A DNA stretch of 64,000 bases, taken from NCBI GenBank assembly GCA_019634625.1, contig JAHCBA010000035.1:1-64000 (forward strand), in the 5' to 3' direction. Below the pieces are notes generated by a model. It saw only the letters and a list, made by a program, of their open reading frames with translations, was not told where the DNA came from and ran no database searches. This document shows positions 22,759 to 49,389 of this stretch, one piece after another; position 1 is the stretch's first letter, and every line of letters begins with the position of its first letter. The DNA comes from Verrucomicrobiia bacterium. Its GTDB lineage: Bacteria; Verrucomicrobiota; Verrucomicrobiia; Limisphaerales; CAIMTB01. Both the position numbers and the translations under genes were made by a program.

Positions 22759-24275
22759 CCCCGACCCAGCCCGCCCGCACGTCCCGCCTTCCCCCTCCGC
22801 TTCCCCGCCTCCCGCCCTGGTTGCGAGACTCCGAACTGCAGGCCTGGCAGGCCGACCTCCACCAGCGCGTGGAGCGCGTGCTCGCCGACGGCGAGCAAGG
22901 CCTGGGTTTCCTTGAGGAACACATCGAGCAGGCCAGCCTCGAGCCGCGCCGCCTGGCTTTGGAGCGAGCCCTCCAAGCCAAGGCGGAAGCGGTTCCTTGC
23001 CTTTGTACCACCTGCCAAGGACCCCTGCGTCGACTGGAATGGTTGTCGCGCTCGATCCGCTCGCGCTTCGGCCCGGTCGAGTTCGCCCGCGCCCACGGAT
23101 GGTGCGCCCGCTGTCAGACGTGGAGCTTCCCCGCCGACCTCGCCCTGGGATTGGCCCCCAACGCCACCGCCTCACCGTTCCTCCAGGAAGCCGCCGCCTT
23201 GTTGGTCAGCAAGATGCCCCCGGCCCAGGCCGAGGCCGTCGCCCAACGCCTCCTCGGCGTGCCCCTGACCCGCTGCTCCTTGGATCGGGAGGCCCGGCGC
23301 CAGGGCCAGCGCGCCCAAAAGCTCCGGGCCGAACAGAACGCGCTTCTCGATTCTTGGGACACGCTGCAAGCCGAGGCCACCCGCCAGAACCAGACACCTT
23401 CGCAGGGACCTTTTACCCTGATCCTCGAAATCGACGCCTGGAACATCCGCGAGCGCGATGACTGGGGGGACACCGAGAAACTGCGTGCGCTGGCCCGGGA
23501 ACCCGAGCGTTGGCATTGGGTCTATACCGCCACCTGCTTCCGCCTCGATCACCGCGGCAGCACCGCCGCCGATCGTCCCGTCATCTCCGAACGTGGCTAC
23601 GTGGCCACCCGCCTCGGCATCGACGAACTCTTCCGCCAACTCCACCGCGAAGCCGTCCGGCGCGGCCTCTGGCAGGCCGCCGACGTCCTCGTCATCGCCG
23701 ATGGCGCCGTCTGGATCTGGAACGCCGTCGCCGACCGCTTCCCCAAGGCCCGCCAACGCCTCGATCTCTTCCATCTCCGCCAGCATCTCTGGGAAATCGC
23801 CCATGACCTTCACGGGCGCGACACCCCGGAAGCCCGGGCTTTCGTCCAACCCCTCCTGACCCACATCCACGACGACCGCGCTGCCGACGTCATCGCCCAA
23901 CTCGATCAACTCCGCCCGCGCCTGGCCGAAGCCCAGCGCCTCAAGCTCGAAAGGCAAACCCAATACCTCCGCAACAACCTCGGGCGAATGCACTACCAGC
24001 AAGCCCTCGCCGCCCAGCAGGCCCAACGCGCCCGCTCCAAAAAGCGCGCTCCCGCCGCCCACCCGACCTCCTCCCCTTCACCCCTTCCAGAACCCGTCGG
24101 CTCCGGGGCCATCGAATCCACCGCTCGCCAGTACCAGTGTCGCTTCAAACGCACCGGCCAGTTCTGGACCCAAGTCGGCGACGAAGCCCTCCTCTGTCTG
24201 GAAACCCTCTGGCGCAACCAGCGCTGGACAGACCTGTTCCCTCACGCCCGCCTCACTGCCAAAAGCCGCAACTGA
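22755..24275 (+). CDS. ISKra4-family-like transposase
   Basis: This 506-aa DDE-type transposase has a zinc-binding region at about 79-125 (CLCTTCQGPL, then HGWCARCQTWSF). Catalytic acidic residues are likely in LILEIDAWNIRERDDWG, VLVIADGAVWIWNAVADRFP and, at the end, VGSGAIESTARQYQCRFKRTG. The block RQRLDLFHLRQHLWEIA follows the second Asp, as in ISKra4 and ISLre2 proteins. The ATG at 22755 overlaps the passenger gene by four bases; the longer upstream frame only shadows the passenger. The protein looks full length without frameshift. Confidence 0.85.
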   Translation: MTPTQPARTSRLPPPLPRLPPWLRDSELQAWQADLHQRVERVLADGEQGLGFLEEHIEQASLEPRRLALERALQAKAEAVPCLCTTCQGPLRRLEWLSRSIRSRFGPVEFARAHGWCARCQTWSFPADLALGLAPNATASPFLQEAAALLVSKMPPAQAEAVAQRLLGVPLTRCSLDREARRQGQRAQKLRAEQNALLDSWDTLQAEATRQNQTPSQGPFTLILEIDAWNIRERDDWGDTEKLRALAREPERWHWVYTATCFRLDHRGSTAADRPVISERGYVATRLGIDELFRQLHREAVRRGLWQAADVLVIADGAVWIWNAVADRFPKARQRLDLFHLRQHLWEIAHDLHGRDTPEARAFVQPLLTHIHDDRAADVIAQLDQLRPRLAEAQRLKLERQTQYLRNNLGRMHYQQALAAQQAQRARSKKRAPAAHPTSSPSPLPEPVGSGAIESTARQYQCRFKRTGQFWTQVGDEALLCLETLWRNQRWTDLFPHARLTAKSRN

Positions 24276-24423
24276 TCTTCCTCGCTCCCTTCATCTCCTC
24301 GCCCTCCTCCTGACCTTCTTCCGTTCTCTCCAGGCCCTTCCGAAAATCTGAGATGCGCCCCTTGGGGAGGCGCACAAGCTCCGGCGCTTGCTGCGCCCCG
24401 GGGCGGGCCCGTAGCGTGGCCGG

Positions 24424-25395
24424 GTGAATGCGCTGGTCACCGGCGGGGCCGGGTACATCGGGTCGGTCTGTGTGGAGGAACTGCTGCGGGCGGGACATCA
24501 GGTCACGGTGTTCGATAATTTCAGCGAAGGACATCGCTCGGCGGTGCCATCCGGCGCGCGGTTGATCGAAGGTTGCCTGAACGATGCGGCGGCGGTGGAG
24601 CGGGCGGTCCGGGAAAGCGGGGCGGAGGCGGTGCTGCATTTCGCGGCACTGGCCCTGATTGCGGAGTCGATGCGGGATCCTGGGAAGTACTTCCGGAACA
24701 ACGTGGGCGGCGGGATGAACCTGCTCGAAGCCTGCGCCAGGGCCGGCGTGCGGAAGTTCGTGTTCAGTTCCACCTGCGCGACCTACGGGATCCCGGAACG
24801 GGTGCCGATCGACGAATCGTTTCCCCAGCGACCCATCAACCCGTACGGAGCCTCGAAGCGGATGTTCGAGGAGATCCTCGACTGGCACGCCCGCGTCCAC
24901 GGACTTGAAGTGGTCGTCTTCCGGTACTTCAACGCCGCCGGTGCCAGCGAGCGGCTGGGCGAGCATCACCGCGTCGAAACCCACCTGATCCCCAACGTCC
25001 TCCGCGTCGCCCTGGGCCAGGCACCGGAGGTGGGGGTCTTCGGCACCGACTACCCCACGCCCGACGGCACCTGCGTCCGGGATTACATCCACATCGTGGA
25101 TCTCGCCGACGCCCATATCCGGGCCCTCGAGCCGGGACGCCGCGGAGCCTACAACCTCGGGATCGGCGGCGGGCATTCCGTGCGGGAGGTCATCCAGGCC
25201 TGTGAACGGGTCTCCGGCAAACCCATCGCCGTGCGGGCCCATCCCCGGCGGGACGGCGACCCGCCCAGCCTGGTGGCGTCGGCCGACAAGGCGCGTCGTG
25301 AACTGGGATGGGAACCGCGCTTCACCCGGCTCGAGGACATCGTCGCCACCGCCTGGGAATGGCATCGACGCCATCCGGACGGCTACCCCGACTAG
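24424..25395 (+). CDS. galE: UDP-glucose 4-epimerase
   Basis: This 323-aa extended short-chain dehydrogenase/reductase interconverts UDP-glucose and UDP-galactose with bound NAD. The Rossmann motif is GGAGYIG at residues 7-13. The catalytic set is S115/S116/T117 and Y141xxxK145 (YGASK). Substrate-binding blocks are RYFNAAGAS and GTDYPTPDGTCVRDYIHIVD, the latter diagnostic for GalE. The start is GTG at 24424, only 62 bp after the IS end, so the insertion may have displaced or supplied its promoter. It supports sugar nucleotide supply for exopolysaccharide or galactose use. Confidence 0.92.
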   Translation: MNALVTGGAGYIGSVCVEELLRAGHQVTVFDNFSEGHRSAVPSGARLIEGCLNDAAAVERAVRESGAEAVLHFAALALIAESMRDPGKYFRNNVGGGMNLLEACARAGVRKFVFSSTCATYGIPERVPIDESFPQRPINPYGASKRMFEEILDWHARVHGLEVVVFRYFNAAGASERLGEHHRVETHLIPNVLRVALGQAPEVGVFGTDYPTPDGTCVRDYIHIVDLADAHIRALEPGRRGAYNLGIGGGHSVREVIQACERVSGKPIAVRAHPRRDGDPPSLVASADKARRELGWEPRFTRLEDIVATAWEWHRRHPDGYPD

Positions 25396-25438
25396 GCCGG
25401 GACCCGCACTGGCCCCCTGAACGCCGTCGCACGCTCCG

Positions 25439-27112
25439 ATGAACGAGATCGCTTCCTGGCAGGCCGCACACCCGGTGGCGAGCGCGGTGCTGATCCTCAG
25501 CGGCGTGGCGGTGGCGGGACTGGCGCTCGGCAACCTCAAGGTGCGGGGCATCGGTCTGGGCGTGGCCGGCGTGCTGTTTGCCGGGATCCTCTTCGGCCAC
25601 CTCGGCTTCAGCCTCGAACCCTCGACCCTGGCGTTCGTCCGGGAGTTCGGACTGATCCTGTTCGTTTATACGATCGGGATGCAGGTGGGGCCCGGCTTCG
25701 TGGCGTCCCTGCGGAAGGAGGGATTCCGCATGAACGTCCTGGCGGCCGCCATCGTGTTGCTGGGCGGACTGCTGACCGTCGGGCTCGGCCTGCTCTTCCG
25801 GCAGGATCTGGCCGCGATGATGGGCGTGTTCGCCGGGGCGACGACCAACACCCCGGCCCTTGGAGCGGCCCAGGAGGCGTTGAAGGCCCTCCCCGGCGGG
25901 GCGGAACGCGCGCCCCTCGCCGGCATGGGATACGCCGTGGCCTATCCCGGCGGGATCGCCGGCCTGATCTTCGCCATGCTCTTCTTCAAGGCGGTCTTCC
26001 GGGTCCAGCCCGAGGCCGAGGCCGAAGCGCTCCGGCGCGAAGAGGAAGCCGCCCGGCCCCGGTTGCGACGCATGAACCTCACGGTCGAGAACGCCAATCT
26101 CGACGGCGTCGCCGTGTCGGAACTGCCCGGGCTTCGCGAGCTGGGCGTGACCCTTTCGCGCATCAAACCCGGCGGGGAGGAAACCGTGCGGCCGGTACGT
26201 GCGGAGACCCGGCTGCACCGTGGCGACATCCTCCTTGCGGTGGGCACGGAGGCGAGCCTGCAGCGCTTCCGCCTCATCGTGGGCCGCGAAGCCGCCGAGG
26301 ATCTCATGCAACTCCCGGGCGAGGTCACCACCCGGCGTGTGGTGGTCACCCGCCGCGAGGCGCTCGGCGAAACCCTCGAACGCCTCGACCCGCCAGGCCG
26401 CCTCGGCGTCACCCTCACCCGCATCAGCCGCGGCGAGGTCGAATTGTCGCCCACCCCCGGCATGCGGCTCCAGTTCGGCGACATCGTCCAGGTGGTGGGC
26501 CGCGACGAGGACATCCAACGGGCGGCGACCGCCCTGGGCAACTCCGCCCAGGCTCTGCACCAGACCAACTTCCTCGCCATCTTCGTCGGCATCGCCCTTG
26601 GCGTCCTCGTCGGCCTTTACCCCCTCGACATTCCGGGACTCCCCATGCCGCTGCGGCTCGGGCTGGCCGGCGGCCCGCTGGTGGTCGCCCTCATCATCAG
26701 CCGCCTGGGCCAGATCGGCCCCGTGGTCTGGCACATGCCCTTCAACGCCAACCTGGCTCTCCGCGGCCTCGGACTCACCCTCTTCCTCGCCTGCGTCGGT
26801 CTCGCGTCCGGGGGCCAGTTCATGGCCACGCTGCGCTCCGGGGCGGGCCTCATCTGGATGGGCCTCGGCATGATCGTCACCCTGGTGCCCCTCCTGATTG
26901 TCGGCTGGCTGGGACGTCGCTGGGTCGGCCTCCGGTTCGCCAGCCTCTGCGGTCTGCTCGCCGGGAGCCTCACCGATCCCCCGGCCCTCGCCTTCGCCAC
27001 CGGCATGAACAAGTCCGAGGCGCCCACCTACGCCTACGCCACCGTGTATCCGCTCACCATGCTCCTCCGCATCCTCGTCGCCCAGGTGCTGACGCTGGTC
27101 TTCTGCAATTAG
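25439..27112 (+). CDS. AspT/YidE/YbjL-family antiporter with two TrkA-C domains
   Basis: This 557-aa inner-membrane protein has a first membrane block of about five helices (residues 14 to about 190). The conserved TTNTPALGAAQEAL and GYAVAYPGGIAGLIFAM match the aspartate:alanine exchanger duplication domain. Two TrkA-C (RCK-C) domains follow, at about 205-285 and 290-370 (TRLHRGDILLAVG and MRLQFGDIVQVVG). A second membrane block holds LAGGPLVVALIISRLG and LCGLLAGSLTDPPALAFA. The family carries amino acids or other small anions; the substrate here is unknown. It starts 43 bp after galE. Confidence 0.88.
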   Translation: MNEIASWQAAHPVASAVLILSGVAVAGLALGNLKVRGIGLGVAGVLFAGILFGHLGFSLEPSTLAFVREFGLILFVYTIGMQVGPGFVASLRKEGFRMNVLAAAIVLLGGLLTVGLGLLFRQDLAAMMGVFAGATTNTPALGAAQEALKALPGGAERAPLAGMGYAVAYPGGIAGLIFAMLFFKAVFRVQPEAEAEALRREEEAARPRLRRMNLTVENANLDGVAVSELPGLRELGVTLSRIKPGGEETVRPVRAETRLHRGDILLAVGTEASLQRFRLIVGREAAEDLMQLPGEVTTRRVVVTRREALGETLERLDPPGRLGVTLTRISRGEVELSPTPGMRLQFGDIVQVVGRDEDIQRAATALGNSAQALHQTNFLAIFVGIALGVLVGLYPLDIPGLPMPLRLGLAGGPLVVALIISRLGQIGPVVWHMPFNANLALRGLGLTLFLACVGLASGGQFMATLRSGAGLIWMGLGMIVTLVPLLIVGWLGRRWVGLRFASLCGLLAGSLTDPPALAFATGMNKSEAPTYAYATVYPLTMLLRILVAQVLTLVFCN

Positions 27113-27273
27113 ACACCTTGCTATTGACCTCGCCCGTCCGGAAGAGGAGCTTATGCATCCCCGGGCGCTCCGCGGGTCGTCCGGGAACGCGGCATCGTCG
27201 CGACCGTGACGTCCCGGCGGGTTATCGGGCCCGGGCGGCGGCGCGGCGGCGATTCCATCCGCAACCGTCACCT

Positions 27274-28608
27274 ATGAACATTGCTCTGCTCGGTCCCACC
27301 GGTTCCGGCAAGGGAACCCTGACCCAGGCGCTGGCGGCGCCGCGGTCGCTGCATCCCATCAACCTCGGCGACGTCCTCCGCCAGAAGACCTCCTACGGCA
27401 CGGCCCTGGGACTGCTGACCCGGGAATACGTGCAAAACGGGGAACTGGTGCCGGACGAGTTCGTGGATGCCATGATCGAGGAGGTGTTCCGGCATCAGCC
27501 GCCGGGCCAGGGGACGCTGCTGGACGGGTTTCCGCGCACGGTCACCCAGGCGCGCTTCCTGGACGACCTCCTCGAGGATCTGGGCAAGAAGCTGGACGCG
27601 GCGATCTACCTGCACGTGCCGGAGCCGGTGATCTTCGAACGGGTGTCGCGACGCCAGCCCCCGCGGCAGGACGACGAACCGCACATCCTGCGGCACCGGC
27701 TCCATGTGTTCCGCCGCATGGTGGCCCCGGTGCTGAAGCACTACTACGAGACCGGCCGCCTGGTGCTGGTGCGCGCCGACGCCCCGATCCACGAACTGGA
27801 GATCACCCTGAACGGATTGCTGGACGGGGTGGCGGCGGGACACCATCCGGCCTTCACCGAGGAGGACTTCCAGTTCCTGGACGGACTGATCAAGGCGAAG
27901 CCGGCGGCGCCGACGCATCCCGAGGTGGCACTCAACCTCGTGCTTCTCGGCGGTCCGGGCAGCGGCAAGGGCACCCAGGCTTCCCATATCTGCCAGGCGT
28001 TCCGCCTGCCCCACATCTCCACCGGCGACCTGTTCCGCGACAACATCAAGAAGCAGACCGACCTCGGACGCCTCGCGCGGTCGTACATGGACCGGGGCGA
28101 CCTCGTGCCGGACGACGTCACCGAACGCATGGTCTCCACCCGGCTGGCGCAGACGGACGCCGGACGCGGCTTCGTGCTGGATGGCTTCCCGCGCACCGTC
28201 TCCCAGGCCGAGGCGCTCGACGAGATCCTCCACGAAATCAACCGCAAGGTCACCGGCGTCATCCACCTCCGCGTGGCCGACGAGGAAATCCTGCGCCGCC
28301 TCTCGGGACGTCGCATCTGCCGCCAGTGTCAGACGCCCTACCATATCCTCTTCAAGAAGCCCCGGCGCGAGGGGATCTGCAACGATTGCGGCGGGGCGTT
28401 GTACCAGCGGGACGACGACAAGGAGGAGACCATCCTGGTCCGGCTGCGGAACTACCATCGCCAGACCGAACCCCTCATCGCCTACTACCGCGACGCCGGG
28501 GTGCTCACCGAGGTCCACGGCGAAGGCGAACTGTCAGCGATCCGGGCCGCCATGCTGGCCGCGGTGAAACTCTTCACCGAGGAACCCGAGGTCGCGGGCA
28601 CCGTCTGA
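27274..28608 (+). CDS. tandem adenylate kinase (two NMP-kinase domains)
   Basis: This 444-aa protein has two adenylate-kinase domains in one chain, where the enzyme is normally about 190-215 aa. Domain 1 (about 1-185) has P-loop GPTGSGKGT (7-15) and LLDGFPRT, but NLGDVLRQ replaces the usual STGDxxR, and it has a short lid without cysteines. Domain 2 (about 218-435) has GGPGSGKGT (226-234), ISTGDLFR, VLDGFPRT and a zinc lid (C349, C352, C369, C372), so it looks fully competent. Domain 1 may be regulatory or have altered substrate use. The ATG at 27274 begins directly with the P-loop strand. It converges on the xylanase gene with a 7-bp gap. Confidence 0.9.
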   Translation: MNIALLGPTGSGKGTLTQALAAPRSLHPINLGDVLRQKTSYGTALGLLTREYVQNGELVPDEFVDAMIEEVFRHQPPGQGTLLDGFPRTVTQARFLDDLLEDLGKKLDAAIYLHVPEPVIFERVSRRQPPRQDDEPHILRHRLHVFRRMVAPVLKHYYETGRLVLVRADAPIHELEITLNGLLDGVAAGHHPAFTEEDFQFLDGLIKAKPAAPTHPEVALNLVLLGGPGSGKGTQASHICQAFRLPHISTGDLFRDNIKKQTDLGRLARSYMDRGDLVPDDVTERMVSTRLAQTDAGRGFVLDGFPRTVSQAEALDEILHEINRKVTGVIHLRVADEEILRRLSGRRICRQCQTPYHILFKKPRREGICNDCGGALYQRDDDKEETILVRLRNYHRQTEPLIAYYRDAGVLTEVHGEGELSAIRAAMLAAVKLFTEEPEVAGTV

Positions 28609-31163: not shown

Positions 31164-31496
31164 CGGGTTGGGGATGGGCGTGGCGCGGGACCTGCCCGGG
31201 GGAGTTGGTGAAAGCAGCAAGCCCGGCTGCGGGATTGCCGTCAAGGCTTCCCCGCCGGGCGGGCCGGCAGGACTCGAGGAAACCGTGGAGGTCGGGGAGA
31301 CGGACGGGCCGTCGCGAAGGCCGCTTCGCCCGAAAACGGCTCAGGCCGGGCGGGAAGCGAAGGGCTGTTCGCGGCCTGCGGTTCCCACGAGGCGGAAGGC
31401 GGCTGGCACGAACGATGCATCGGGGAGGCATCCGGTGATGCGAGGTTTGCGGACCTCCCAAAATGCCCGGAGGCAAATCAATACCCAAGGATCGTT
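31164..31496. other. divergent promoter region between oxidoreductase and sigma-54 cluster
   Basis: No gene lies here. Short GC-rich inverted repeats are present, for instance GCCCGGCTGCGGG and CCGCCGGGCGGG. The sigma-54 promoter match is at 31404-31418. The upstream 200 bp is where an enhancer for the activator would be expected, but I cannot point to a repeated operator. Confidence 0.5.
31404..31418 (+). promoter_or_regulatory. sigma-54 (-24/-12) promoter
   Basis: TGGCACG-AACG-ATGC matches the consensus TGGCACG-N4-TTGC at all but one base, with GG and GC spaced exactly 10 nt. It lies 79 bp upstream of the first gene of the six-gene cluster, leaving room for a roughly 65-nt leader. A sigma-54 activator gene ends the same locus, which makes this site much more credible than a chance match. 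Confidence 0.7.
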
Positions 31497-32135
31497 ATGC
31501 CCTACGAAGCACCTGAAACCTACGAAGCCGATCTGGATGGACCGCCCGTTCGTGGCGAATACGCCTATGAGTACGTCGAGGGCGAGGGGGAGGCGGAGGC
31601 GGATTATGAGGCCAGTGGAGAGCTGCTGGATGAGGAGTCCGAAATGGACCTGGCGATGGAACTGCTGGATGTCGCCAGCGAGGGGGAGCTGGACCAGTTC
31701 CTGGGCAATCTCGTTCGCCGCGTGGGGGGCGCCGCCGCCCGGTTTGTGCGCTCGCCCACCGGACAGCAATTGGTGGGGGCGTTGCGCGGCGCGGCCCGCA
31801 AGGCTCTGCCCACCGTCGGCGCCGCCATCGGAGGGCGCATCGCGGGACCCACGGGCGCCCGCATCGGAAGCCAGGTGGCCCAGACGGCCGGACGGGTGTT
31901 CGGCCTGGAACTGGAGGGGCTCAGTCCCGAGGACCAGGAGTTCGAGGCGGCCCGGCGCTTCGTGCGATTTGCCAGCTCCGCAGCCCATAGCTGGGTGCGG
32001 CGCGGCGGGTCGCCGGGATGGGCGCTTCGTCACGCGGCCCGGCGGTACGCGCCGGGTTTGTATCGGTGGCCGTCAGGGGGCCGGCCGGGATACGGCGGAG
32101 GATACCGGGCCCGGCGGGCCTGGCGCGCCTGGTGA
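31497..32135 (+). CDS. cluster protein A: acidic N-terminus, glycine-rich core, basic tail
   Basis: This 212-aa protein has no named family. Residues 1-55 are acidic and Tyr/Glu-rich (YEYVEGEGEAEADYE). Then comes DLAMELLDVASEGELDQFL, shared with the next gene. A Gly/Ala-rich stretch of about 90-130 (VGAAIGGRIAGPTGARIG) has GxxxG spacing, like glycine zippers of membrane-inserting proteins. The block FEAARRFVRFASSAA is also shared. The tail is Arg/Gly/Tyr-rich. It has no signal peptide. It is first in the operon after the sigma-54 site, and AAGGA lies just ahead of the ATG. Function unknown; an assembling or membrane-active structural part is my inference. Confidence 0.75.
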   Translation: MPYEAPETYEADLDGPPVRGEYAYEYVEGEGEAEADYEASGELLDEESEMDLAMELLDVASEGELDQFLGNLVRRVGGAAARFVRSPTGQQLVGALRGAARKALPTVGAAIGGRIAGPTGARIGSQVAQTAGRVFGLELEGLSPEDQEFEAARRFVRFASSAAHSWVRRGGSPGWALRHAARRYAPGLYRWPSGGRPGYGGGYRARRAWRAW

Positions 32136-32272
32136 AGCGCCGCAACACGCGGGGCGCGGGCGATGGGATCGAAGGGGCGGCGCGGTGGCCGGTAAACGGC
32201 GACCGCGGGGGTTCGATCCCGGTCCCTTCCATCCCCGGCATCCCCATCCCCACATCAACCACGGAGATACCC

Positions 32273-32980
32273 ATGCATGACATCGACACATCCCAGCGCG
32301 AGATGGAACAGGACACGGCCGGCATCGATCCGGAAGCCTACGAGGGCGAGATGGAGGCGGAGGATGCCTTCGAGGCGGCGCCGACGAGGACGTTGGGTCC
32401 CGAGGAGGAGCTGGACCTGGCCAACGACCTGCTCGAGATCGAGTCGGAAGAGGAGCTGGATCAGTTCCTTCCCGCCCTGATCGGAGTGGGAGCCAAGCTC
32501 CTGCCCGGCATCGCCAAGGGCATCGGCAGTCTGTTCGGCCGCAAGCGACGGCGTCGGCGCCGGGCCCAGCAGGAACGGGAGGCCGTGCTGAGCGATGTCC
32601 TGGGCGAGATCGCCCGGACCGCGCTGGGCGGCGAGCCCTCGGCCGGCGGAAACGGTGTGGCCCGTGCAGTCGGGCCGGCCGTGGGGGAACTCTTTGAAGC
32701 GGAGTTGCCCGGGGCCGGTGCCGAGTCCCCGGAACTGGAGCGGGCGCGGCGGTTTGTGCGCCTGGCGACCACCGCGGCGCAGAAGGCCGCCCTGATACCG
32801 TCCACCGTCGATCCCCGCGCGGCCGTGCAGAATGCCGTTCGGGCGGCGGCCGAGGGATTGCTGGGAAGGGCGCGGCGGGCCCTCGGTGGCCAGGCTCCGC
32901 AACAGGAGGGCCCGGCGGCGGACGGGCAGTCCGGACGGTGGGTGCGACGCCGCAATCGGATCGTCCTCTACGGAGTGTGA
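32273..32980 (+). CDS. cluster protein B: paralogue of A
   Basis: This 235-aa protein has the same layout as A. The acidic start includes YEGEMEAEDAFEAAP. DLANDLLEIESEEELDQFL aligns position by position with A. LIGVGAKLLPGIAKGIGSLF follows, then a run RKRRRRRR. The block LERARRFVRLATTAAQKAAL matches A's second shared block. The Arg run could bind nucleic acid or phospholipid. No signal peptide is visible. The ATG at 32273 has GGAG six bases upstream. The gene ends 2 bp before gene C, so the two are surely co-transcribed. A and B probably arose by duplication and may form a hetero-assembly. Confidence 0.78.
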   Translation: MHDIDTSQREMEQDTAGIDPEAYEGEMEAEDAFEAAPTRTLGPEEELDLANDLLEIESEEELDQFLPALIGVGAKLLPGIAKGIGSLFGRKRRRRRRAQQEREAVLSDVLGEIARTALGGEPSAGGNGVARAVGPAVGELFEAELPGAGAESPELERARRFVRLATTAAQKAALIPSTVDPRAAVQNAVRAAAEGLLGRARRALGGQAPQQEGPAADGQSGRWVRRRNRIVLYGV

Positions 32981-32982
32981 TC

Positions 32983-34317
32983 ATGGAGTTGCCTTCCCCA
33001 TCGTTCCGGTTGTTGGAGCAGGAGGCGCAGGCCCTGCTGGCGCGGTTGGAAAGCGTGCGCCCGTTCTCCTTGCAGATGGCGGCCGTCCCCGCGGCCTGTG
33101 TCTCTCCCGCGGCACAAACCGCCATCGACACGCATCTGGAGCGGGTGCGCCGCGAACTCCACGCGATGGGCCGCGCGTTTCTCTCTTGGCTCCAGTCACC
33201 CCGCGCGGAGATGGAATCGCCGGCCCGGGCCCAGCGCCGCTTCACGATCCTGCGCCTCCGCTTCAACGCCATGCTGTCCCAGCTCGACATCTTTGCCGAC
33301 GTCCTGGTCCAGCGTGGCGAACACGAGTCCGGCGTATGGGTCTCCGGTCTGGACGCCCTGGCCGCCGATGCCCTGGCGATGCCGGGCTACTACCAGCCGC
33401 CCCCCGTGGTCTGCTATCTCGACCGGGGCCACGGGGCGGCGATCCGTCGCGCCCGAACGCGGTTGCCGGGCGGGGACGAGAATCCTGTCGCCATCATCCG
33501 GGTGCCACGCGAGCGGATGGTGGGAAGCGGCATCGCCTCCTCGCTGATCCATGAGGTCGGGCATCAGGCTGCGGCGCTCCTTCACCTGGTCGAGTCTCTC
33601 ACCGTCGAGCTGCGCGACCAGGCCGCCAGGCACCCAGGGCAGGCCCAGGCGTGGCAGCTCTTCGAGCGATGGATCTCGGAGATCGTCGCCGACTTCTGGT
33701 CCATGGCACGGGTCGGAGTCGGCGCCACGCTCGGGTTGATCGGGGTGGTGAGTCTCCCCAGGGCGTTCGTCTTCCGCATCAACCTCGACGATCCCCATCC
33801 GTTTCCCTGGATTCGCGTGAAGCTGAGCTGCGCCATCGGCCGCGCCCTCCACCCGCACCGGCAATGGAACCGCCTGGAATCGATCTGGGAATCCTTCTAT
33901 CCGGTCGAGGGACTCGAGACGGAGAAGGCCCGCCTGGTCGCGCTGCTCGAAGACACCCTGCCCGGGTTTGTCCAGTTGCTGGCGAATCATCGGTCCGGAC
34001 CGCTGCTCGGCCACACCCTGGCGGAGGCCGTGGCGGATCCCCGGCGTCATCCTGTCCGGTTGACCGCCGAGTACGAGGCGTGGGGCGCGTCGCCCCAACG
34101 CATGCGCCGCGTGCCCCCGACGATGGCCTTCGCCGTCATCGGCCAGGCGCGCGCCAACGAGTCGCTCGATCCCCTGACGGAGACGCGCTGGATCGGCGCG
34201 CTCCTGACCCACTGGGCCCTGCACGCCACCCTCGACACCACCGCCCTCTGCGCCGAGGTCACCCCCCTGCTGTCCAGGGCCCGACCGTCGTCCCTTCCAA
34301 CCCCCGTGAATGTTTGA
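32983..34317 (+). CDS. cluster protein C: putative zinc metallopeptidase
   Basis: This 444-aa protein carries LIHEVGHQ, a HEXXH zinc motif at residues 190-194. E233 in WISEIVADFW (ExxxD, 39 residues later) is a good third ligand, the gluzincin pattern. The N-terminal third is helical (EQEAQALLARLES, then HLERVRRELHAMGRAF). It has no signal peptide or membrane helix apart from a mildly hydrophobic segment after the motif (ATLGLIGVVSLPRAFVF). GGAG lies seven bases before the ATG at 32983. It may process proteins A, B or E, or act on the envelope; I do not recognise a named peptidase family. Confidence 0.7.
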   Translation: MELPSPSFRLLEQEAQALLARLESVRPFSLQMAAVPAACVSPAAQTAIDTHLERVRRELHAMGRAFLSWLQSPRAEMESPARAQRRFTILRLRFNAMLSQLDIFADVLVQRGEHESGVWVSGLDALAADALAMPGYYQPPPVVCYLDRGHGAAIRRARTRLPGGDENPVAIIRVPRERMVGSGIASSLIHEVGHQAAALLHLVESLTVELRDQAARHPGQAQAWQLFERWISEIVADFWSMARVGVGATLGLIGVVSLPRAFVFRINLDDPHPFPWIRVKLSCAIGRALHPHRQWNRLESIWESFYPVEGLETEKARLVALLEDTLPGFVQLLANHRSGPLLGHTLAEAVADPRRHPVRLTAEYEAWGASPQRMRRVPPTMAFAVIGQARANESLDPLTETRWIGALLTHWALHATLDTTALCAEVTPLLSRARPSSLPTPVNV

Positions 34318-34320
34318 GAC

Positions 34321-34325
34321 AGGAG
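34321..34325 (+). promoter_or_regulatory. Shine-Dalgarno AGGAG deciding the start of gene D
   Basis: AGGAG is eight bases before the ATG at 34334, in the 16-bp gap after gene C. This favours 34334 over an ATG at 34310 that would overlap gene C and lacks such a site. Confidence 0.75.
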
Positions 34326-34333
34326 AATCCCCT

Positions 34334-36610
34334 ATGAAAGAAACCCTTGTCAGAGTGATTGTGACCGTGACGGACCACGGCGACCCATCCCTGCCCGTCC
34401 GGAATGCCCGCGTATGGGTCCGCCCCGCAGCCGGCCGGACCCAGGCTCGCGCGGCCAAGGCGTCCCCTCCCGAGTGTGTGGCCGAGGAACCGGTGTCGGC
34501 GCGCACCGATGACACCGGTCAGGCCCTCCTGCAGTTGAAGCCAGGCGATTGGCAGATCGCCACGGATGCCTTCCGCCAGCAGGATGAGAAGGAATACGTC
34601 AAGGACATCCGAGTGAGTGAGACGTGCACCGATCAGCGTGTCTCCTTGGAAATCCCGGTGTACTTCAAGCTGGGCATTTCTGTTTGCGGGCGGGACAACA
34701 AGCCCGGCACATGCCAGGGCCCGGTCCCCGCGGGCGCGCCACTTCTGTTTGAGGTGCGGACGGGCGACGGTTCCAGGGCGATCCGGTTCGCCGATCCGGT
34801 CGTGGCAGAAGTCTTCTCCCCGTGGGATCGGGCCATTCCGCTCGGCAATCCCGCCGAGTTGCGGTTCGTCTCGTACGCGGGCCACTCGGGCGCCGGAAAC
34901 CTGGAGATCACGGCCATCCTGCGACACGGGAACGATCCTGAAGGTGCCCACATCGTGACGCAGGAAACGGTGCCGGTGGCGCCGGTGCCGCTGACCGCGG
35001 TGAGCGGCGACGTGTCCGTGACCATGCGTCGTACGGCGACGATTCCGACCCCGGACCTGCCGCTCTGGGTGGTGATCCGGAAGAGCACGGAGGCCCTCTC
35101 CTTCGATCGGTATCTCGAGTACATGAACCTGGTCCTCTGCGGCGTCGATCCGGAGACGAAGCAGTTGCTGACCCGCCCGGGGGAGTGGCAAAACCGGGTG
35201 TTCGGAGACCGCTCGAAGACGGTCTTTGAACGGCTGCGCCAACGACGATTCCTGCCCTACACCGATTCCGACGCCTACCGGGTGCTCAAGACCGCGACCG
35301 AGGCCTTTGTCCTCACCAACTGCGGGATCAAGACGGACGAACTGTTCCGTCATCCGTTCACCGATGCTGACGCCCGCGACGTGGCGGAAAGGGTTGGCTT
35401 CGACGGCACCTTCACGCGGCGGCGGTTGGAATCGCTCTGGCGCGGCGATCCGGTTTCGGGCGAGTCGGGCTATCTGGAGAAGGTCAACGGGGCGAAGACC
35501 CTGGTGTATCTCAAGCTGATCGCCGACAAGTTGCCGGATGTCCGGATCAAGCGGGCGCTGTTCGACGGGGACCGGGACTTCTGGGCCGGCCTCCCCGAGG
35601 GCTGTTTTGGAATCGTGGAGAGCAAGCTGACGAATCCCTGCCTGCTCGAACTGATCTGGTCGTACTGGAACGAGGAGGGAATGCTGGTGCAGACGATGAA
35701 CGCCATCAGTCTGCGGTTCCAGAACCGCCGCATCGCGGAGAACGACCCGCTGGCGAACATGGAGATCGACCCGCTGCGTCCGCTCAACAACCTCCTCTGG
35801 GGGTACATCCAGGATGAGCAGCATCGACTCACCCTCCAGCGGCGCTCCTACGAGTACGAGCACCACTACGGGCTCCGCCTCGAGGGCAGGGCGGTGGGCG
35901 AACCCCGCGTCGCCGACACGCGGTCGAAGCTGATCGAGGCCTTCCACAACCTGCTTCACCTCTGCTCGGTGTTCTTCAGGCAGGACGACGACACGACCTT
36001 CAAGGCGGACGGATTCCCGCTGCTCAATGCCCTGAAGGAAGTCCACCGGATCATCGCCGAGGGGGCGCACAACCAGTTCGGGGATCTTCCCTCGACCGCC
36101 CGCATCGAGATGCTGATGCAACAGTGGCTCCTGGCGCGGCCGGAGTTCCGGGAGTACCTGCCGACCCGCCTCATGGTGGCCTATTCCGAGCCGTGGATGG
36201 ACCGGGTGGACGCCATGAAGAAGCTCCAGGGATGGACCGATTCGTCGATCGCGGACTTCCATACCCTGGCGACGTTCGGGGAGCAGATCCTCCTGACCAT
36301 CCGCTATGGAAGTTGGAGCGAGGTGAACGATCGCGAGCACGCCTCCAACTGGGCCCGTTACTGGCGGTCGGAGATCCAGGGCTACATCCACTCGTATCGG
36401 GCCGTCACCAGCGTGGACCTCACCTCGGAATTCACCGAGACCCGGCTGCATCGCGAGGCGTACCTGCCGCCTTCGGTGCACTTGCGACGGCGACTCGAGG
36501 CCCAACGCGGCGGTGGGCCAACCGCCGACCCCCCCCAGGCAGCCCCCGTTCGTCGGGCCGGACGTGTCGCAACGACACGGATCCGGGAGAGTTCACGCGT
36601 GGTCCGTTGA
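34334..36610 (+). CDS. cluster protein D: 758-aa protein with N-terminal transthyretin-like domain
   Basis: I cannot name a family for the whole protein. Residues 1 to about 105 look like a carboxypeptidase-regulatory/transthyretin-type beta sandwich (VRVIVTVTDHGDPSLPVRNA, then ARTDDTGQALLQLKPGDWQI). The remaining 650 residues are mixed alpha and look highly ordered. Trp/Tyr-rich blocks that should be conserved are SFDRYLEYMNLVLCGVDPE, LLHLCSVFFRQDDDTTFKAD, QWLLARPEFREYLPTR and WARYWRSEIQGYIHSYRA. The tail is Pro/Arg-rich. There is no signal peptide or membrane helix. It is probably the main structural or enzymatic part of the cluster. Confidence 0.75.
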   Translation: MKETLVRVIVTVTDHGDPSLPVRNARVWVRPAAGRTQARAAKASPPECVAEEPVSARTDDTGQALLQLKPGDWQIATDAFRQQDEKEYVKDIRVSETCTDQRVSLEIPVYFKLGISVCGRDNKPGTCQGPVPAGAPLLFEVRTGDGSRAIRFADPVVAEVFSPWDRAIPLGNPAELRFVSYAGHSGAGNLEITAILRHGNDPEGAHIVTQETVPVAPVPLTAVSGDVSVTMRRTATIPTPDLPLWVVIRKSTEALSFDRYLEYMNLVLCGVDPETKQLLTRPGEWQNRVFGDRSKTVFERLRQRRFLPYTDSDAYRVLKTATEAFVLTNCGIKTDELFRHPFTDADARDVAERVGFDGTFTRRRLESLWRGDPVSGESGYLEKVNGAKTLVYLKLIADKLPDVRIKRALFDGDRDFWAGLPEGCFGIVESKLTNPCLLELIWSYWNEEGMLVQTMNAISLRFQNRRIAENDPLANMEIDPLRPLNNLLWGYIQDEQHRLTLQRRSYEYEHHYGLRLEGRAVGEPRVADTRSKLIEAFHNLLHLCSVFFRQDDDTTFKADGFPLLNALKEVHRIIAEGAHNQFGDLPSTARIEMLMQQWLLARPEFREYLPTRLMVAYSEPWMDRVDAMKKLQGWTDSSIADFHTLATFGEQILLTIRYGSWSEVNDREHASNWARYWRSEIQGYIHSYRAVTSVDLTSEFTETRLHREAYLPPSVHLRRRLEAQRGGGPTADPPQAAPVRRAGRVATTRIRESSRVVR

Positions 36611-36624
36611 GGGAAAGGTGACCT

Positions 36625-37536
36625 ATGCACGACCTCGAATCCCCGTGGGGACCGCCCAGCCATTCTTCGGACTGGGAAACGGAACCGGTAGCCAATGATC
36701 CCCGATCGTTGGCCTCATTCCGGGAAGCCGGGTGGGGCGAAGAATTCGAAGCTCCGGAGCCGGGACAGGCCGAGGATCCCGAACAGCCCCGGCTGGTGCT
36801 CGACAGATTCCGTCGGGGGGACGCGGCGCTTCGACCGCACCACACGGCCGACATTGAGGGCTTTGTCCGCCAGCTCGCGGAGAACCCGCCGGAACCAGGG
36901 ACCCGGATCGTGCTGATTGGGCACGGGGACGGTTCGGGCGATCCGGAATCCGAGGAGCCGCTGGCCACGGACCGGGCCCGCGCCGTCCGCCGTGCCCTGC
37001 GCCCGGCGCTGCGGCAAAGCGGCCTGACCCTGCCGCTCCGTCACCAGGGCCAGGGCGAAGACGAACCGGTGGCGGACGGCAGCACACCCGAAGGCCGGCA
37101 ACAGAATCGGCGGGTCGAGGTGTACCTGTGTCCCGCCGAGGAGACCGGGCCGTCGTCCGCTCCTGGCCCGCTTCCCGGTCCCGGCGGCCCCCGGGTCATC
37201 CATCGACCGTACGGATGGTCGGCACGCCGGCGCTACATCCCGCGGCATCCAGGCTGGCGCGGCCCTCATCGGGCGTTCCGACCGATCCGACCGATCCGTC
37301 CGATCCGTCCCCTCCGTCCGATCCGCTCGATCCGTCGGTTCCGCCCGATTCGACCCCGCATCGTCGGGGCCTCGCGATTCCGCCGCCCGCTGGGGCGCCT
37401 CCCGTTGAGGCGTCCCGTCATCCGGCGGGCGATCACGCCCCGGCGCCGGATCGTCGTTCGCCGACCCCTCGTTCGACCGCGTCCGGCCCGGTTTTCACGA
37501 CCTGTGATCCGGCGGACCCTCCGGCCTCGCCGATGA
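36625..37536 (+). CDS. cluster protein E: OmpA-C-like domain with arginine-proline repeat tail
   Basis: This 303-aa protein has an acidic start (1-55), then an OmpA-like peptidoglycan-binding fold at about 58-170. The fold shows RIVLIGHGDGSGDPESEEPL, TDRARAVRRALRPAL and QQNRRVEVYL, the last being the classic NRRVE ending. The tail (about 210-303) is extremely basic and repetitive, RPIRPIRPIRPLRPIR followed by more Arg/Pro/Ile units. There is no signal peptide, unlike normal OmpA or Pal proteins, so access to the cell wall would need another route or lysis. AAGGTG precedes the ATG. It overlaps gene F by four bases (ATGA). Confidence 0.78.
   Translation: MHDLESPWGPPSHSSDWETEPVANDPRSLASFREAGWGEEFEAPEPGQAEDPEQPRLVLDRFRRGDAALRPHHTADIEGFVRQLAENPPEPGTRIVLIGHGDGSGDPESEEPLATDRARAVRRALRPALRQSGLTLPLRHQGQGEDEPVADGSTPEGRQQNRRVEVYLCPAEETGPSSAPGPLPGPGGPRVIHRPYGWSARRRYIPRHPGWRGPHRAFRPIRPIRPIRPLRPIRSIRRFRPIRPRIVGASRFRRPLGRLPLRRPVIRRAITPRRRIVVRRPLVRPRPARFSRPVIRRTLRPRR
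37276..37360 (+). repeat. tandem CCGATCCGW repeat in gene E
   Basis: CCGATCCGA/CCGATCCGT units of nine bases repeat with small changes, coding for RPI and RSI units in the basic tail. Length variation between strains is likely and would keep the frame, since the unit is a multiple of three. Confidence 0.75.
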
Positions 37537-38363
37537 TCATCGACTGCCATTGTCATGCCGGGGCGGGGGACGGACTCACGGGTCCGTGGGACACACGCGC
37601 GCCCCTGCGGGACTTCCTGCGATGGAGCGCCGCGGCGGGGATCGACCGGACGGTGCTTTTCGCGGCGTTTCATTCCGACTACCTGGCCGCCAACCGCGAG
37701 GTGGCGGCGTGGGTACGACGCCAGCCGGACCGGTTCCTCGGGTTCGCCTTCGTCCATCCGGAACGGGATCGGGGAAGAGTACAGGCCATGGTGCGCGAGG
37801 CGGTGGAGGTTCACGGGTTTGTCGGGATCAAGGTGCACCGCCACGACGCGCGGATCACAAGGGAGATCTGCGAGGTGGCGCGGAGGTACCGGTTGCCCGT
37901 GCTCTACGACGTGATGGGGGAGGTCTGGGTGTGCGAACTGCTGGCAAGGGAGTATCCCGAAGTGAATTTCATCATCCCGCACCTGGGGAGCTTCGCCGAC
38001 GACTGGCGGGCCCAACTGGCGTTGATCGATCACCTGGTCCGACACCCGAACGTCTTCACGGACACGTCAGGCGTGCGCCGCTTCGATCTGCTGGAGCAGG
38101 CGCTGACACGGGCCGGCCCGCACAAGCTGCTGTTCGGTTCGGACGGCCCGTGGCTGCATCCCGGGGTCGAGTTGGCGAAGGTGCACGCCCTGGAACTGCC
38201 CCCGCGGGAGGCAGCGCTGGTGTTGGGCGGGAACCTCCTACGCCTGGTCAACCGGGCCGGTCTGCAGCGGCGACCGCCGGGGCCCATCACTCCCCGATCC
38301 GTGGCGACGGAGGTGGCGCCCCGGGATCCGTGGGAACCTGTTGCGGAAATTCTGGTGCAGTGA
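37533..38363 (+). CDS. cluster protein F: amidohydrolase-2 family metal-dependent hydrolase
   Basis: This 276-aa TIM-barrel protein is of the amidohydrolase 2 type (related to ACMSD and other decarboxylases/hydrolases). The N-terminal metal motif is MIIDCHCHAG. Later metal or proton-relay positions are VGIKVHRHD, VNFIIPHLGSF and KLLFGSDGPW. There is no signal peptide. The ATG overlaps gene E's stop by four bases, so it is translationally coupled to the cluster even though an enzyme is unexpected there. Its last 77 bp overlap the convergent activator gene. The substrate is unknown. Confidence 0.85.
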   Translation: MIIDCHCHAGAGDGLTGPWDTRAPLRDFLRWSAAAGIDRTVLFAAFHSDYLAANREVAAWVRRQPDRFLGFAFVHPERDRGRVQAMVREAVEVHGFVGIKVHRHDARITREICEVARRYRLPVLYDVMGEVWVCELLAREYPEVNFIIPHLGSFADDWRAQLALIDHLVRHPNVFTDTSGVRRFDLLEQALTRAGPHKLLFGSDGPWLHPGVELAKVHALELPPREAALVLGGNLLRLVNRAGLQRRPPGPITPRSVATEVAPRDPWEPVAEILVQ

Positions 38364-39759
38364 GCTGGCGGACCATCCCGCACGTCCCGCCCCGTCGGGC
38401 GGCGCGGCGCATCTGCACCGCCCGGTCGGTGACGCGCAATCGAAGCGCCGCCTGATGAACATTCCCGCGGGCATCGCGCAGGGCGATGCCGATGGCGGTG
38501 TCGGCGGTCCGTTCCTTGATCTCCTGGAGTCCCGCGCCGCCGGCCAGGGCCCGGCGAAGGGCGACTTCAAGGTCGCCGGAGGTCCAGTCGGACCCCAGTT
38601 CCCGGGCGGCCTCCAACCGGTCGCCTTCCGGGATCGATCCAACGGTGACCGGTCCGGGACCCACATGGCGGGCCACCATCCTCAGAACCAACTGGCGCAA
38701 CTCGCGGACGTTGCCGCGGTAGGGGCGGGTCAGGAGGAACTCCTCGACGGTCGGATCGAAGACCGTCTCCGCGGCCCGGAGGATTTCACTGGCGGCGGCG
38801 GCAAAGTGCCGGGCGAGCGGCAGGATGTCCTCGCGGCGTTCCCTCAGCGGCGGCGCCTGCAGCGTCCATGTGGCGATCCGGTGATAGAGATCGAGTCGGA
38901 ACCGGCCCCGAACCGAGGCGGCCACCAGGTCGCGGTTGGTCGCGCAGATCAGGCGGAACCGGGTTTGCTGCCAGACGTTGCTGCCGACCCGCTTGAAGCT
39001 GCGTTCCTGCACGGCGCGAAGCAGCTCGGCCTGCAGCACCGGCGGAAGCTCCCCGACTTCGTCGAGAAACAGCGTGCCCCCGTCGGCGAGGGCGAAGGCC
39101 CCATCCCGGGCCGCGACGGCGTGCGTGAAGGCGCCGCGTTCGTGGCCGAAGAGTTCGCTTCCGGCCAGTTCGGGCACCACGGTGGTGCAATCCACCACCA
39201 CAAACGGTCCCTTCCCGGGCCGCGCATCGAGGGCATGGACCAGGCGCGCCAGGAGTTCCTTGCCGGTGCCGGTTTCGCCAGCGATCAGCAGCGAACTGCC
39301 GGTGAATCGAGCCGCCTCCACGACCTGGTGCATCAGGCGTCTCCACGACGGACTCTCTCCCACCAGGCTGTCCCGGACCGTGGGCGACTGACACAACGCG
39401 TCCACTTCCCGGCTTCGTTGAATCCGTTCCGCAAGCGCCTCGGCCAGGGCCGGATGCTCGCTCCAGACCAGCACGTCGGCGGCCCCGGCCTGGATCAGGC
39501 GCCAGACCGTCCCCTGGTGAAGCCCGTCGCGGACGGTGGCCACCGCCAGCATCAGGCAGGGATGGCGGGCCGCCAGTTCATGCACGCGGCGTACGACCTC
39601 GTCGTCGCCGTCCTCGAACACCACCACCACCGCGTTCGCCTCGGAGGCCTCAGGGGATGCAATCCCGATCCCGCACCGGCGCAATTCCGATTCGATCTCC
39701 GAGGCCGGCGGTCCGCCCGCCCGGCCCAGCGGGAGAATGCAGACCGTCGGGCGGCTCAT
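38287..39759 (-). CDS. sigma-54-dependent transcriptional activator with GAFTHA loop
   Basis: This 490-aa NtrC-type enhancer-binding protein has residues 1-115 resembling a receiver domain without a convincing phosphate-acceptor Asp (VVVVFEDGDD, then AGAADVLVW). The AAA+ domain is at about 130-360, with Walker A GETGTGKE (161-168) and Walker B GTLFLDEVG (228-236). The sigma-54 contact loop is G209-AFTHA, not GAFTGA. The C-terminal Fis-like helix-turn-helix is at about 428-455 (GNVHQAALRLRVTDRAVQMR). It faces the cluster tail to tail and is the likely activator of the promoter at 31404. The signal it senses is unknown. Confidence 0.88.
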   Translation of the reverse strand: MSRPTVCILPLGRAGGPPASEIESELRRCGIGIASPEASEANAVVVVFEDGDDEVVRRVHELAARHPCLMLAVATVRDGLHQGTVWRLIQAGAADVLVWSEHPALAEALAERIQRSREVDALCQSPTVRDSLVGESPSWRRLMHQVVEAARFTGSSLLIAGETGTGKELLARLVHALDARPGKGPFVVVDCTTVVPELAGSELFGHERGAFTHAVAARDGAFALADGGTLFLDEVGELPPVLQAELLRAVQERSFKRVGSNVWQQTRFRLICATNRDLVAASVRGRFRLDLYHRIATWTLQAPPLRERREDILPLARHFAAAASEILRAAETVFDPTVEEFLLTRPYRGNVRELRQLVLRMVARHVGPGPVTVGSIPEGDRLEAARELGSDWTSGDLEVALRRALAGGAGLQEIKERTADTAIGIALRDARGNVHQAALRLRVTDRAVQMRRAARRGGTCGMVRQLTAPEFPQQVPTDPGAPPPSPRIGE

Positions 39760-48500: not shown

Positions 48501-49389
48501 GTCCGGTGCCGTCGTTGAGGTAGAGCGTGTCGGCTTCGCCTCGTTCGAAGAGGCTGACACCGCCGGACTTGAGGAACAGCGGTTGGAAGCGGTCGGCCGG
48601 TGTGACGACGAACCGGCCGTTGACGGTCCCGGCCCGGACATCGTTGAGCAGGTGGGGTGCATCCTTGACGGTCCGGGTGTGGTAACGCGCGACGTAGAGA
48701 TCGAGGTGGCCATCGCCGTTGATATCGGCCAGGGCGAGGCTCGTGCTGCCATGGGCCCCGGCAAGCCCGCTGTCCTGGGTGACCTCGGTGAACCGGCCCC
48801 GGCCATCATTGAGGAAGACGCGGGTGCCGCCGCCCAGACTGTTCACGATCAGGTCGAGGTCGCCGTCGCCGTCGATGTCGGCAAACACCGCCCCGGTGGA
48901 CGCCTGTCCGGCGCACGCCACCCCGGCCGGTTCGGTCACGTCGAGGAAGGTGCCGTCACCGAGGTTGCGGTAGAGCCTGTTCGGGCCGTCGATGGCGCAG
49001 AGATAGAGATCGATCCATCCGTCGCCGTCCATGTCACCGAGGGCCACACCGGAACCCAGTTCGTAGAGCTGATTGCGACTCAGCCACGCCTCCGGAACAC
49101 GGTTGGTGAAATGGACACCGGTCTGTTCGGGGGCCAGGCGGACGAAGCCGGTGGCGCCCCGGGAGGGTACATCGAGGGGCGTCAGCCGGGAACCGGAGGC
49201 GGGTGGGACTTCGGAAGAGGCCGCCTGTGCGCCTGGAACGAGAAGGCAGCATGCCCCCGCGACCGCCGCCACAGCCGGCCGCCACCCTGCCAACGGCTGC
49301 GTTCCCGGATCACAAGGCACGGAGGTGGGGCGCAAGCTTCCGGGTTTCGGGCCCGGAAAGGGAGAGAACAACGGCTTGCCAGCCGACAC
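45595..49389 (-). CDS. large secreted FG-GAP/VCBS repeat protein with UnbV (ASPIC) domains
   Basis: This 1264-aa exported protein has a signal-like segment at about 38-57 (AVAAVAGACCLLVPGAQA) after a long N-terminus, so the true start could be later. Many FG-GAP/VCBS beta-propeller repeats follow, each with a calcium loop such as DMDGDGWIDLYLC, DINGDGHLDLYVA, DLDNDGDLDAVVN and DFDGDGRLDLVAT. Two UnbV/ASPIC modules are seen, mid-protein (TRAVGARIQVTGGPGGRQSQ) and C-terminal (GIGATVRVQYGTRFGPARAV). This CRTAC-type layout is common in Verrucomicrobiota. It may bind surfaces or polymers outside the cell. Confidence 0.88.
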   Translation of the reverse strand: MSAGKPLFSPFPGPKPGSLRPTSVPCDPGTQPLAGWRPAVAAVAGACCLLVPGAQAASSEVPPASGSRLTPLDVPSRGATGFVRLAPEQTGVHFTNRVPEAWLSRNQLYELGSGVALGDMDGDGWIDLYLCAIDGPNRLYRNLGDGTFLDVTEPAGVACAGQASTGAVFADIDGDGDLDLIVNSLGGGTRVFLNDGRGRFTEVTQDSGLAGAHGSTSLALADINGDGHLDLYVARYHTRTVKDAPHLLNDVRAGTVNGRFVVTPADRFQPLFLKSGGVSLFERGEADTLYLNDGTGRFTPVSWTDGTFLDEEGEPLTEPPLDWGLAVAFRDLNGDRAPDLYLCNDFFHSPDRIWINDGHGRFRAIPRLALRNQSLSSMAVDFADINRDGHDDIFVLDMLATTHRDRHRHRASRIHLQVERPFTRPDYRPEYPRNTLALARGDGTYAEIAQYAGLDASGWSWGAAFLDVDLDGYEDILVTTGNLRDANDADSGRDRSGRLDAARPRSRPPLPSRLELPCLAFRNNGDLTFTEVGADWGFSTHGVSHGIALADLDNDGDLDAVVNHVDQPVGIYRNTGTAPRVQVRLHGRAPNTRAVGARIQVTGGPGGRQSQEVIAGGRYLSGDDPARTFAAGTAANRLEVQVTWRNGAVSLVRDVPANHRLEIWEPERPSSTPSSAPPPDPLPWFEDQSGRLRQAHAEPPFDESSLQPLLERSLANRGPGVGWYDVDGDGWEDLFVASGRGSHPVLYLNDTQGFFRPLRRAERAPLDQTTVLGWRSPDGQSRMLFGYSHYEGWGPAEPAVIEFPLRSSDPPQTLPASPSSVGPLALGIVDGTPVLFVGGQVRPGRYPEAASSRLLTWRVGAWHPDTQATAAFEAVGLVQGATWADLDGDGRPELILACDWSSLRVFALENNVWKEITARLGLARYRGWWNGVAAGDFDGDGRLDLVATNWGRNTRHQRHRARPLRLYHGEWSGTGRIDLLEAYYDPDLARYVPFQTWDVLRESLPALAVRFAGHAAYAEAGIDDILVDHAATTRWIEADWFETTVFLNRPDGFEARPLPAEAQFAPAFGVTVSDFDGDGHEDLVLAQNFFGVPADTSRHDAGRGLLLLGDGQGGFRAIPGHVSGIRLYGEQRGAAASDFDQDGRVDLVIAQWNGPPGLFRNRSATPGLRVRLNGGAGNPDGIGATVRVQYGTRFGPARAVVAGSGYGSQNGAVQVMGLAGTPSHIQVRWPDGTLTVRPVPPGAREMLIRSGEGSVGMPRPDSSR

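Follow-up and report, generated by a model that had tools for sequence, protein, structure and literature searches.

The question raised by this locus is what two short acidic proteins, A and B, do at the head of a gene cluster, and to what kind of system that cluster belongs. The window (the whole stretch of 64,000 nucleotides that was analysed) carries the following features of the cluster.

31404..31419, plus strand: sigma-54 (-24/-12) promoter-like site TGGCAC-GAACG-ATGCA (TGGCACGAACGATGCA), 77 bases upstream of the start of A
31497..32135, plus strand: protein A (212 aa), positional class A1, with an acidic disordered N-terminus, a helical domain with a glycine hairpin and a basic C-terminus
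31647..31703, plus strand: shared block 1 of A, DLAMELLDVASEGELDQFL (residues 51-69; sequence and BLASTP)
31950..31985, plus strand: shared block 2 of A, ARRFVRFASSAA (residues 152-163; sequence and BLASTP)
32273..32980, plus strand: protein B (235 aa), positional class A2, with an MHDID start and adjoining C
32414..32470, plus strand: shared block 1 of B, DLANDLLEIESEEELDQFL (residues 48-66; sequence and BLASTP)
32540..32563, plus strand: RKRRRRRR run of B (residues 90-97), missing in the other aligned members shown
32744..32779, plus strand: shared block 2 of B, ARRFVRLATTAA (residues 158-169; sequence and BLASTP)
32983..34317, plus strand: protein C (444 aa), predicted gluzincin-type metallopeptidase, with HEVGH (190-194) and E233/D237
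34310..36610, plus strand: protein D (766 aa), with a variable N-terminal part and a conserved, mostly helical part of ~500 residues
36625..37536, plus strand: protein E (303 aa) in the cargo slot, with an OmpA peptidoglycan-binding domain, an acidic start and an Arg/Pro-rich tail
37533..38363, plus strand: protein F, amidohydrolase (Amidohydro_2) with the start MIIDCHCHAG and an ATGA overlap with E
38287..39759, minus strand: protein S, sigma-54-dependent activator (Sigma54_activat), convergent and closing the cluster

The initial annotation had described A and B as duplicated proteins that share the blocks DLAxxLLxxxSExELDQFL and ARRFVRxAxxAA, with an added RKRRRRRR run in B. Both blocks are present exactly as written and the run is found in B. 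The two proteins are paralogues by BLASTP (34% identity across 183 residues, E 2e-10), and whole-genome searches recovered one with the other at E 8e-11. A profile search identified them as the sole family members in the window genome; they score 218.7 bits (A) and 161 bits (B) against a 71-row profile whose rows include A and B themselves. We placed the start of B at ATG 32273 and not at 32018 because the MHDID start of its homologues matches 32273 and the ORF opening at 32018, the longest one, overlaps A. The acidic front and charge-separated ends that had been pointed out are evident in A, whose first 45 residues contain 15 D/E versus 1 K/R and whose last 60 contain 0 versus 14.

The same annotation could assign A and B to no characterised family, and our searches agree. 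Profiles of A, C and D compared with Pfam, and the window proteins compared with NCBIfam, PHROGs and PADLOC, gave no convincing match. A PDB sequence search with A, C and D returned nothing useful, as A matched designed helical proteins only. We found no account of the cluster in the literature, which is a weak negative because unnamed proteins give a text search little to find. A system of a known kind with such a gene content was not encountered here, and A, C and D are families without a name in the libraries searched.

A scan for D in one genome per species returned 161 relatives. Among 84 loci, for which the best 80 of these 161 were kept, C is present in 81, A in 78, T in 76, S in 68 and F in 65, and many of the absent genes fall at contig ends. 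The order A-C-D-(T)-E-F-S is conserved, as seen in the 84 loci, which places the A/B proteins at the head of the cluster as had been claimed. Clusters comprise one to three copies of A, then C, D, usually T, a variable cargo gene E, F, and S on the opposite strand. The window has a gene order identical to that of L008, which belongs to another family within the same taxonomic order: two A genes, C, D, cargo, F, and S on the opposite strand. Relatives were found in Pseudomonadota, Nitrospirota, Acidobacteriota, Methylomirabilota, Rokubacteria, Planctomycetota, Myxococcota, Chloroflexota, a Bacteroidota bin and Schekmanbacteria; counting the Verrucomicrobiota of the window, the cluster spans ten or more phyla. 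It also occurs on Rhizobium and Ensifer plasmids, and a minimal cluster, A-C-D-F-S without cargo, resides on a Paraburkholderia phymatum plasmid. Cargo within the cluster is therefore not needed for the core to persist.

Within lineages, occurrence is patchy. In a phylum-wide sample of 387 genomes D is present in 1, and B is present in 2 of 97 relatives; both counts include the window genome. In the family that contains Massilia, A and D are found in the same 14 of 145 genomes, 13 of which have three or more A matches. This patchy distribution suggests that the cluster may have spread horizontally. In 12 genomes searched whole, A matches were confined to the cluster. The 60 complete clusters contain one A copy in 2 cases, two in 10 and three in 48. 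A rule that genomes with D always carry two or more A copies is thus too strict: it describes 58 of these 60 clusters, and single copies occur in L017 and L046 (the other two), in the Paraburkholderia plasmid cluster and in a Myxococcus genome.

Position and a tree divide the A proteins into three classes: A1 upstream of A2, A2 adjoining C, and A3 after D. An MHDID-type start is found in 68 of 75 A2 copies and the tail in 74 of 75, and the A3 copies form one supported clade with CxCxxC in 46 of 58. Protein A of the window occupies the A1 position, but in the tree it falls, on a long branch, among proteins that are mostly A2; the branch of B is even longer, so its placement is unsure. Protein A has no GRWxRxG tail, which is usual in the family, and B has a degenerate glycine hairpin and the RKRRRRRR insert and retains a GRWVRRRNRIVLYGV tail. 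The two look complementary, with the hairpin kept and the tail lost in A and the reverse in B. Such opposite losses of hallmarks would be compatible with a pair that functions only as a hetero-oligomer. A1 and A2 are fused in one open frame in Duganella and a relative (L086:6950-8158, L087:6911-8065, L088:6956-8125 and L068:7349-8572). The front part of the Paraburkholderia A protein contains a run of GEYQ repeats (L093:9500-10552).

The glycine zipper ascribed to A and B holds as a trait of the family and fails as a universal one. The central segment of the family contains 377 GxxxG motifs versus 173 (sd 10) in shuffled sequences, and G108, G112, G120 and G124 are each ~90% or more conserved in the 71-member alignment. 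Taken singly, A has 8 GxxxG motifs versus 4.4 when shuffled (P 0.053) and B has 3 versus 2.9 (P 0.59). When a wide middle segment is counted, at least two GxxxG motifs are found in all A2 and A3 copies versus 26 of 64 A1 copies. Homologues without the glycine-rich centre, named in the initial annotation as evidence that would weigh against its reading, do exist, namely B and the other 38 A1 copies. The initial annotation linked these features to proteins that may oligomerise in or on membranes. Hydropathy does not reach the level of a membrane helix, defined as a 19-residue mean of 1.6 or more: peak values are 0.78 for A and 1.35 for B with a family median of 1.29, and a single member of the 71 attains 1.6. 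The AlphaFold model of A, for which rows from plasmid records were omitted from the input, as in all the structure predictions, has a mean pLDDT of 76.6, with residues 46-189 helical, both ends disordered and a low-confidence glycine turn at 111-116. A fold search with this model gave a best Foldseek E of 1.6 and a best VIA Z of 5.0 (mixed helical folds), a result that does not imply a new fold.

We predict from sequence conservation that C is a gluzincin-type zinc peptidase: H190, E191, H194, E233 and D237 are invariant in 34 aligned members, and HExGH is present in every C except a fragment. None of the 34 members matched a Pfam metallopeptidase, and C had no PDB match. D belongs to no known family by Pfam and PDB sequence searches; its model has a mean pLDDT of 54.5, with a beta-rich, low-confidence variable N-terminal part. 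T resembles BioF/Kbl acyltransferases and is missing from the window, L008, L046, L085 and the Paraburkholderia cluster. Among the 60 complete clusters, F is present in 55 and T in 56.

Regulation points to sigma-54. The window has both marks of a sigma-54 regulon, a -24/-12 site ahead of the first gene and the activator gene S. In 52 of 73 related loci the sigma-54-type site before the first A gene is the best or tied best locus-wide, where ~1% would be expected; self-overlap of the random windows limits the per-locus P values, which warrant no finer reading. Downstream of S, L008 contains a tandem-repeat tract (L008:18450-18980) with units translating as VVHFETAETTSAQC-like. Elsewhere in the window, a 1264-residue ORF with FG-GAP and UnbV/ASPIC repeats lies at 45595-49389 (minus strand), and three long neighbouring ORFs (432, 649 and 416 aa) at 24253-28518 (minus strand) have no Pfam match at E 1e-5.

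The cargo slot is variable in content. The domains detected in 61 cargo proteins include PG_binding_1 (23), Amidase_2 (11), OmpA (5) and GIY-YIG (5), and further trypsin, VanY, muramidase, glucosaminidase and M20 peptidase domains. GIY-YIG is Pfam-supported in the separate cargo protein of L011; a GIY-YIG domain in A-fused proteins was an eye reading without Pfam support and was rejected. Matches to the PT-VENN pre-toxin domain were also discounted, as they lie under the Pfam cut-off and overlap the peptidoglycan-binding domain. By a simple rule, none of ten N-termini tested appears Sec-like; the N-terminus of E of the window is not Sec-like. Window E aligns with a cargo protein from Variovorax (E 4e-14) inside the OmpA domain, and the L008 cargo, with trypsin and peptidoglycan-binding domains, shares 56% identity with a Gemmataceae counterpart.

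Some A domains are fused to such cargo. PG_binding and A domains share one reading frame in L014, L055 and L016, and in Nitrosomonas a peptidoglycan-binding domain precedes the A domain in a single frame. The order is PG_binding-A-Amidase_2, with the A domain in the middle, in L069 and L070, and a weak A-like domain occurs with OmpA in L057. At L012:9209-10516 (minus strand) and in the OmpA-containing L057:8822-11125, long helical repeats rich in alanine and glycine come after an A-like domain.

Cargo and A3 proteins also share an N-terminal tag, F-[EDQN]-x2-3-[FY]. Of 55 distinct genes that come first after T, 35 have it versus 5.7 in shuffles (maximum 13), and it is present in 23 of 42 A3 proteins versus 1.2; these counts are inflated by near relatives, and the effect size is approximate because the pattern was picked after viewing the sequences. 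The control set of T and F proteins has it in 1 of 141. Window E has the acidic start, but the F-E-x2-3-F/Y tag itself is absent. The N-termini of A2 proteins contain 21% D/E and 10% F/Y/W, and those of cargo proteins, a set partly picked by eye, contain 24% and 15%, versus 9% and 8% in controls.

Overall, the cluster resembles a regulated set of cargo together with machinery that handles it. At the level of sequence, the comparisons establish the homology and classes of A, A-D co-occurrence, the gene order, the sigma-54 site with its activator, the A fusions and the shared tag. From these we infer, with somewhat less than even confidence, a sigma-54-controlled, Sec-independent system for cargo delivery or assembly, in which A would be an oligomerising, membrane-perturbing module. 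S would switch the operon on, and the A proteins would oligomerise through the glycine hairpin and their acidic and basic ends. C, if it is a zinc peptidase, may mature A or the cargo, and D, with C, may recognise tagged cargo. The glycine zipper would then perturb or cross a membrane, after which the cargo could reach targets beyond the producer, whether peptidoglycan, protein or nucleic acid, with competitor cells as the simplest case. The cargo of the window genome would be the OmpA-domain protein E. A more specific proposal is more tentative still, and we think it somewhat unlikely: an unnamed Sec-independent delivery system of ten or more phyla in which A proteins oligomerise into a glycine-zipper conduit or carrier, cargo tagged with F-E-x2-3-F/Y is loaded by C and D, cis-fused A domains carry peptidoglycan-targeted domains, and a dedicated sigma-54 activator controls the whole.

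Several observations weigh against delivery. F and T look like metabolic enzymes without a clear delivery role, the hydropathy of A is under the membrane-helix level, D was modelled poorly, the Paraburkholderia core does without cargo, window E has no tag, and a scan of the cluster genes revealed neither a transporter nor a conserved gene for immunity. The A proteins could instead be sticky polyampholytes that build a cytosolic or cell-surface scaffold or condensate, to which enzymes with a similar acidic-aromatic N-terminus are recruited, with F and T metabolic and no transport into other cells. The acidic-aromatic composition of A2 and cargo N-termini, the GEYQ-type repeats in the Paraburkholderia A protein, the disordered ends of the A model, the retention of F and T in most complete clusters and the existence of a cargo-free core are all in keeping with such an assembly, but the substrates of most cargo domains (those for peptidoglycan binding and hydrolysis, and OmpA) are found only outside the cytoplasm, and we consider this reading unlikely. 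A known contractile apparatus is also unlikely as the general delivery route. VipB (PF05943), in a search whose E. coli control was positive, had no match in the window genome or in 6 of 13 other genomes with the cluster. Neither VipB nor Phage_sheath_1 matched in three cluster genomes (that of L008, Nitrosomonas mobilis and Microvirga), so that a type VI secretion system (T6SS) or a contractile particle would probably not explain delivery in general. Two Phage_sheath_1 matches lie on contig C5 of the window genome (11826-14827), possibly in a contractile particle cluster. We favour delivery or assembly over the scaffold because externally acting cargo domains have no Sec-like start, T6SS or contractile delivery is unlikely and the Tde1 analogy described below is available.

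The remaining alternatives are less probable still. Peptidoglycan-binding proteins with amidase or muramidase domains and no Sec signal resemble endolysins, so the cluster might encode programmed lysis or wall remodelling triggered by sigma-54, with a holin-like A and with E as an endolysin-like or wall-remodelling enzyme. That is improbable: A has no membrane-helix hydropathy, the cargo of the window is an OmpA-domain protein, other cargo is trypsin-like or GIY-YIG, and the Paraburkholderia cluster has no hydrolase. Moreover, D was unmatched in 50,697 phage records and C in viral contigs, results on which a phage origin was also rejected. We give marginally less weight to a metabolic or sensory operon for an unknown small molecule, with F, T and S as the functional core and A, C and D as accessories. 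The BioF/Kbl-like T and the amidohydrolase F are indeed widely retained, but T is missing from the window and the four other loci given above, and it is A, C and D that stay together wherever the contig allows. Finally, A and B might be secreted glycine-zipper toxins of a two-component bacteriocin that kills on contact, as their pairing as paralogues recalls CdzC and CdzD (PMC5380434). This is the least probable reading, and a very doubtful one, since A and B are 212-235 residues long versus 84-86 for CdzC/D, B has no zipper, and neither a leader nor a transporter of the cluster was recognised.

From Verrucomicrobiota to Chloroflexota, A, C and D are kept as a set beside peptidoglycan hydrolase, nuclease-type and protease domains that have no export signals. 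If the cluster exports or delivers its cargo, proteins would be trafficked by a new route; otherwise it represents a widespread assembly of unexplained purpose. In either case, the short tag, the sigma-54 switch and the culturable hosts (Janthinobacterium, Massilia and Paraburkholderia) allow direct testing.

We compared the cluster with known systems that share some of its features. The Pfam family Gly-zipper_Omp (PF13488) weakly matches 2 of 71 A members (best E 0.0029), whereas A and B of the window are unmatched, and A is a larger helical domain with an acidic front and a conserved tail. The polymorphic toxins of PVC/eCIS with a PVC-metallopeptidase (PMC3482391) also combine a zincin-type peptidase with OmpA and glucosaminidase among the toxin domains. 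In contrast, C is a separate protein with HEVGHQ (HEVGHQAAAL) rather than HExxHxxQ, and the cluster has no sheath gene. The Cdz bacteriocins resemble the cluster in having two paralogous glycine-zipper proteins per operon. The N-termini of CdzC/D are leader-like, and type I secretion genes and a gene for immunity lie next to them (PMC5380434), whereas no leader, type I secretion system or immunity protein was recognised for the A/B cluster, and A and B (212 and 235 aa) exceed the ~5-10 kDa of a Cdz-like toxin. Tde1 is a DNase effector in which GxxxG motifs are required to cross the target membrane (PMC10240207). Tde1-type T6SS effectors share with the cluster a GxxxG-rich segment fused to or encoded beside an effector domain, a start that is not Sec-like and a proposed membrane crossing. 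Tde1 is a T6SS effector with a Tap1 adaptor, whereas A occurs as stand-alone paralogues beside C and D. By analogy, the Tde1 glycine zipper would be the closest counterpart of A.
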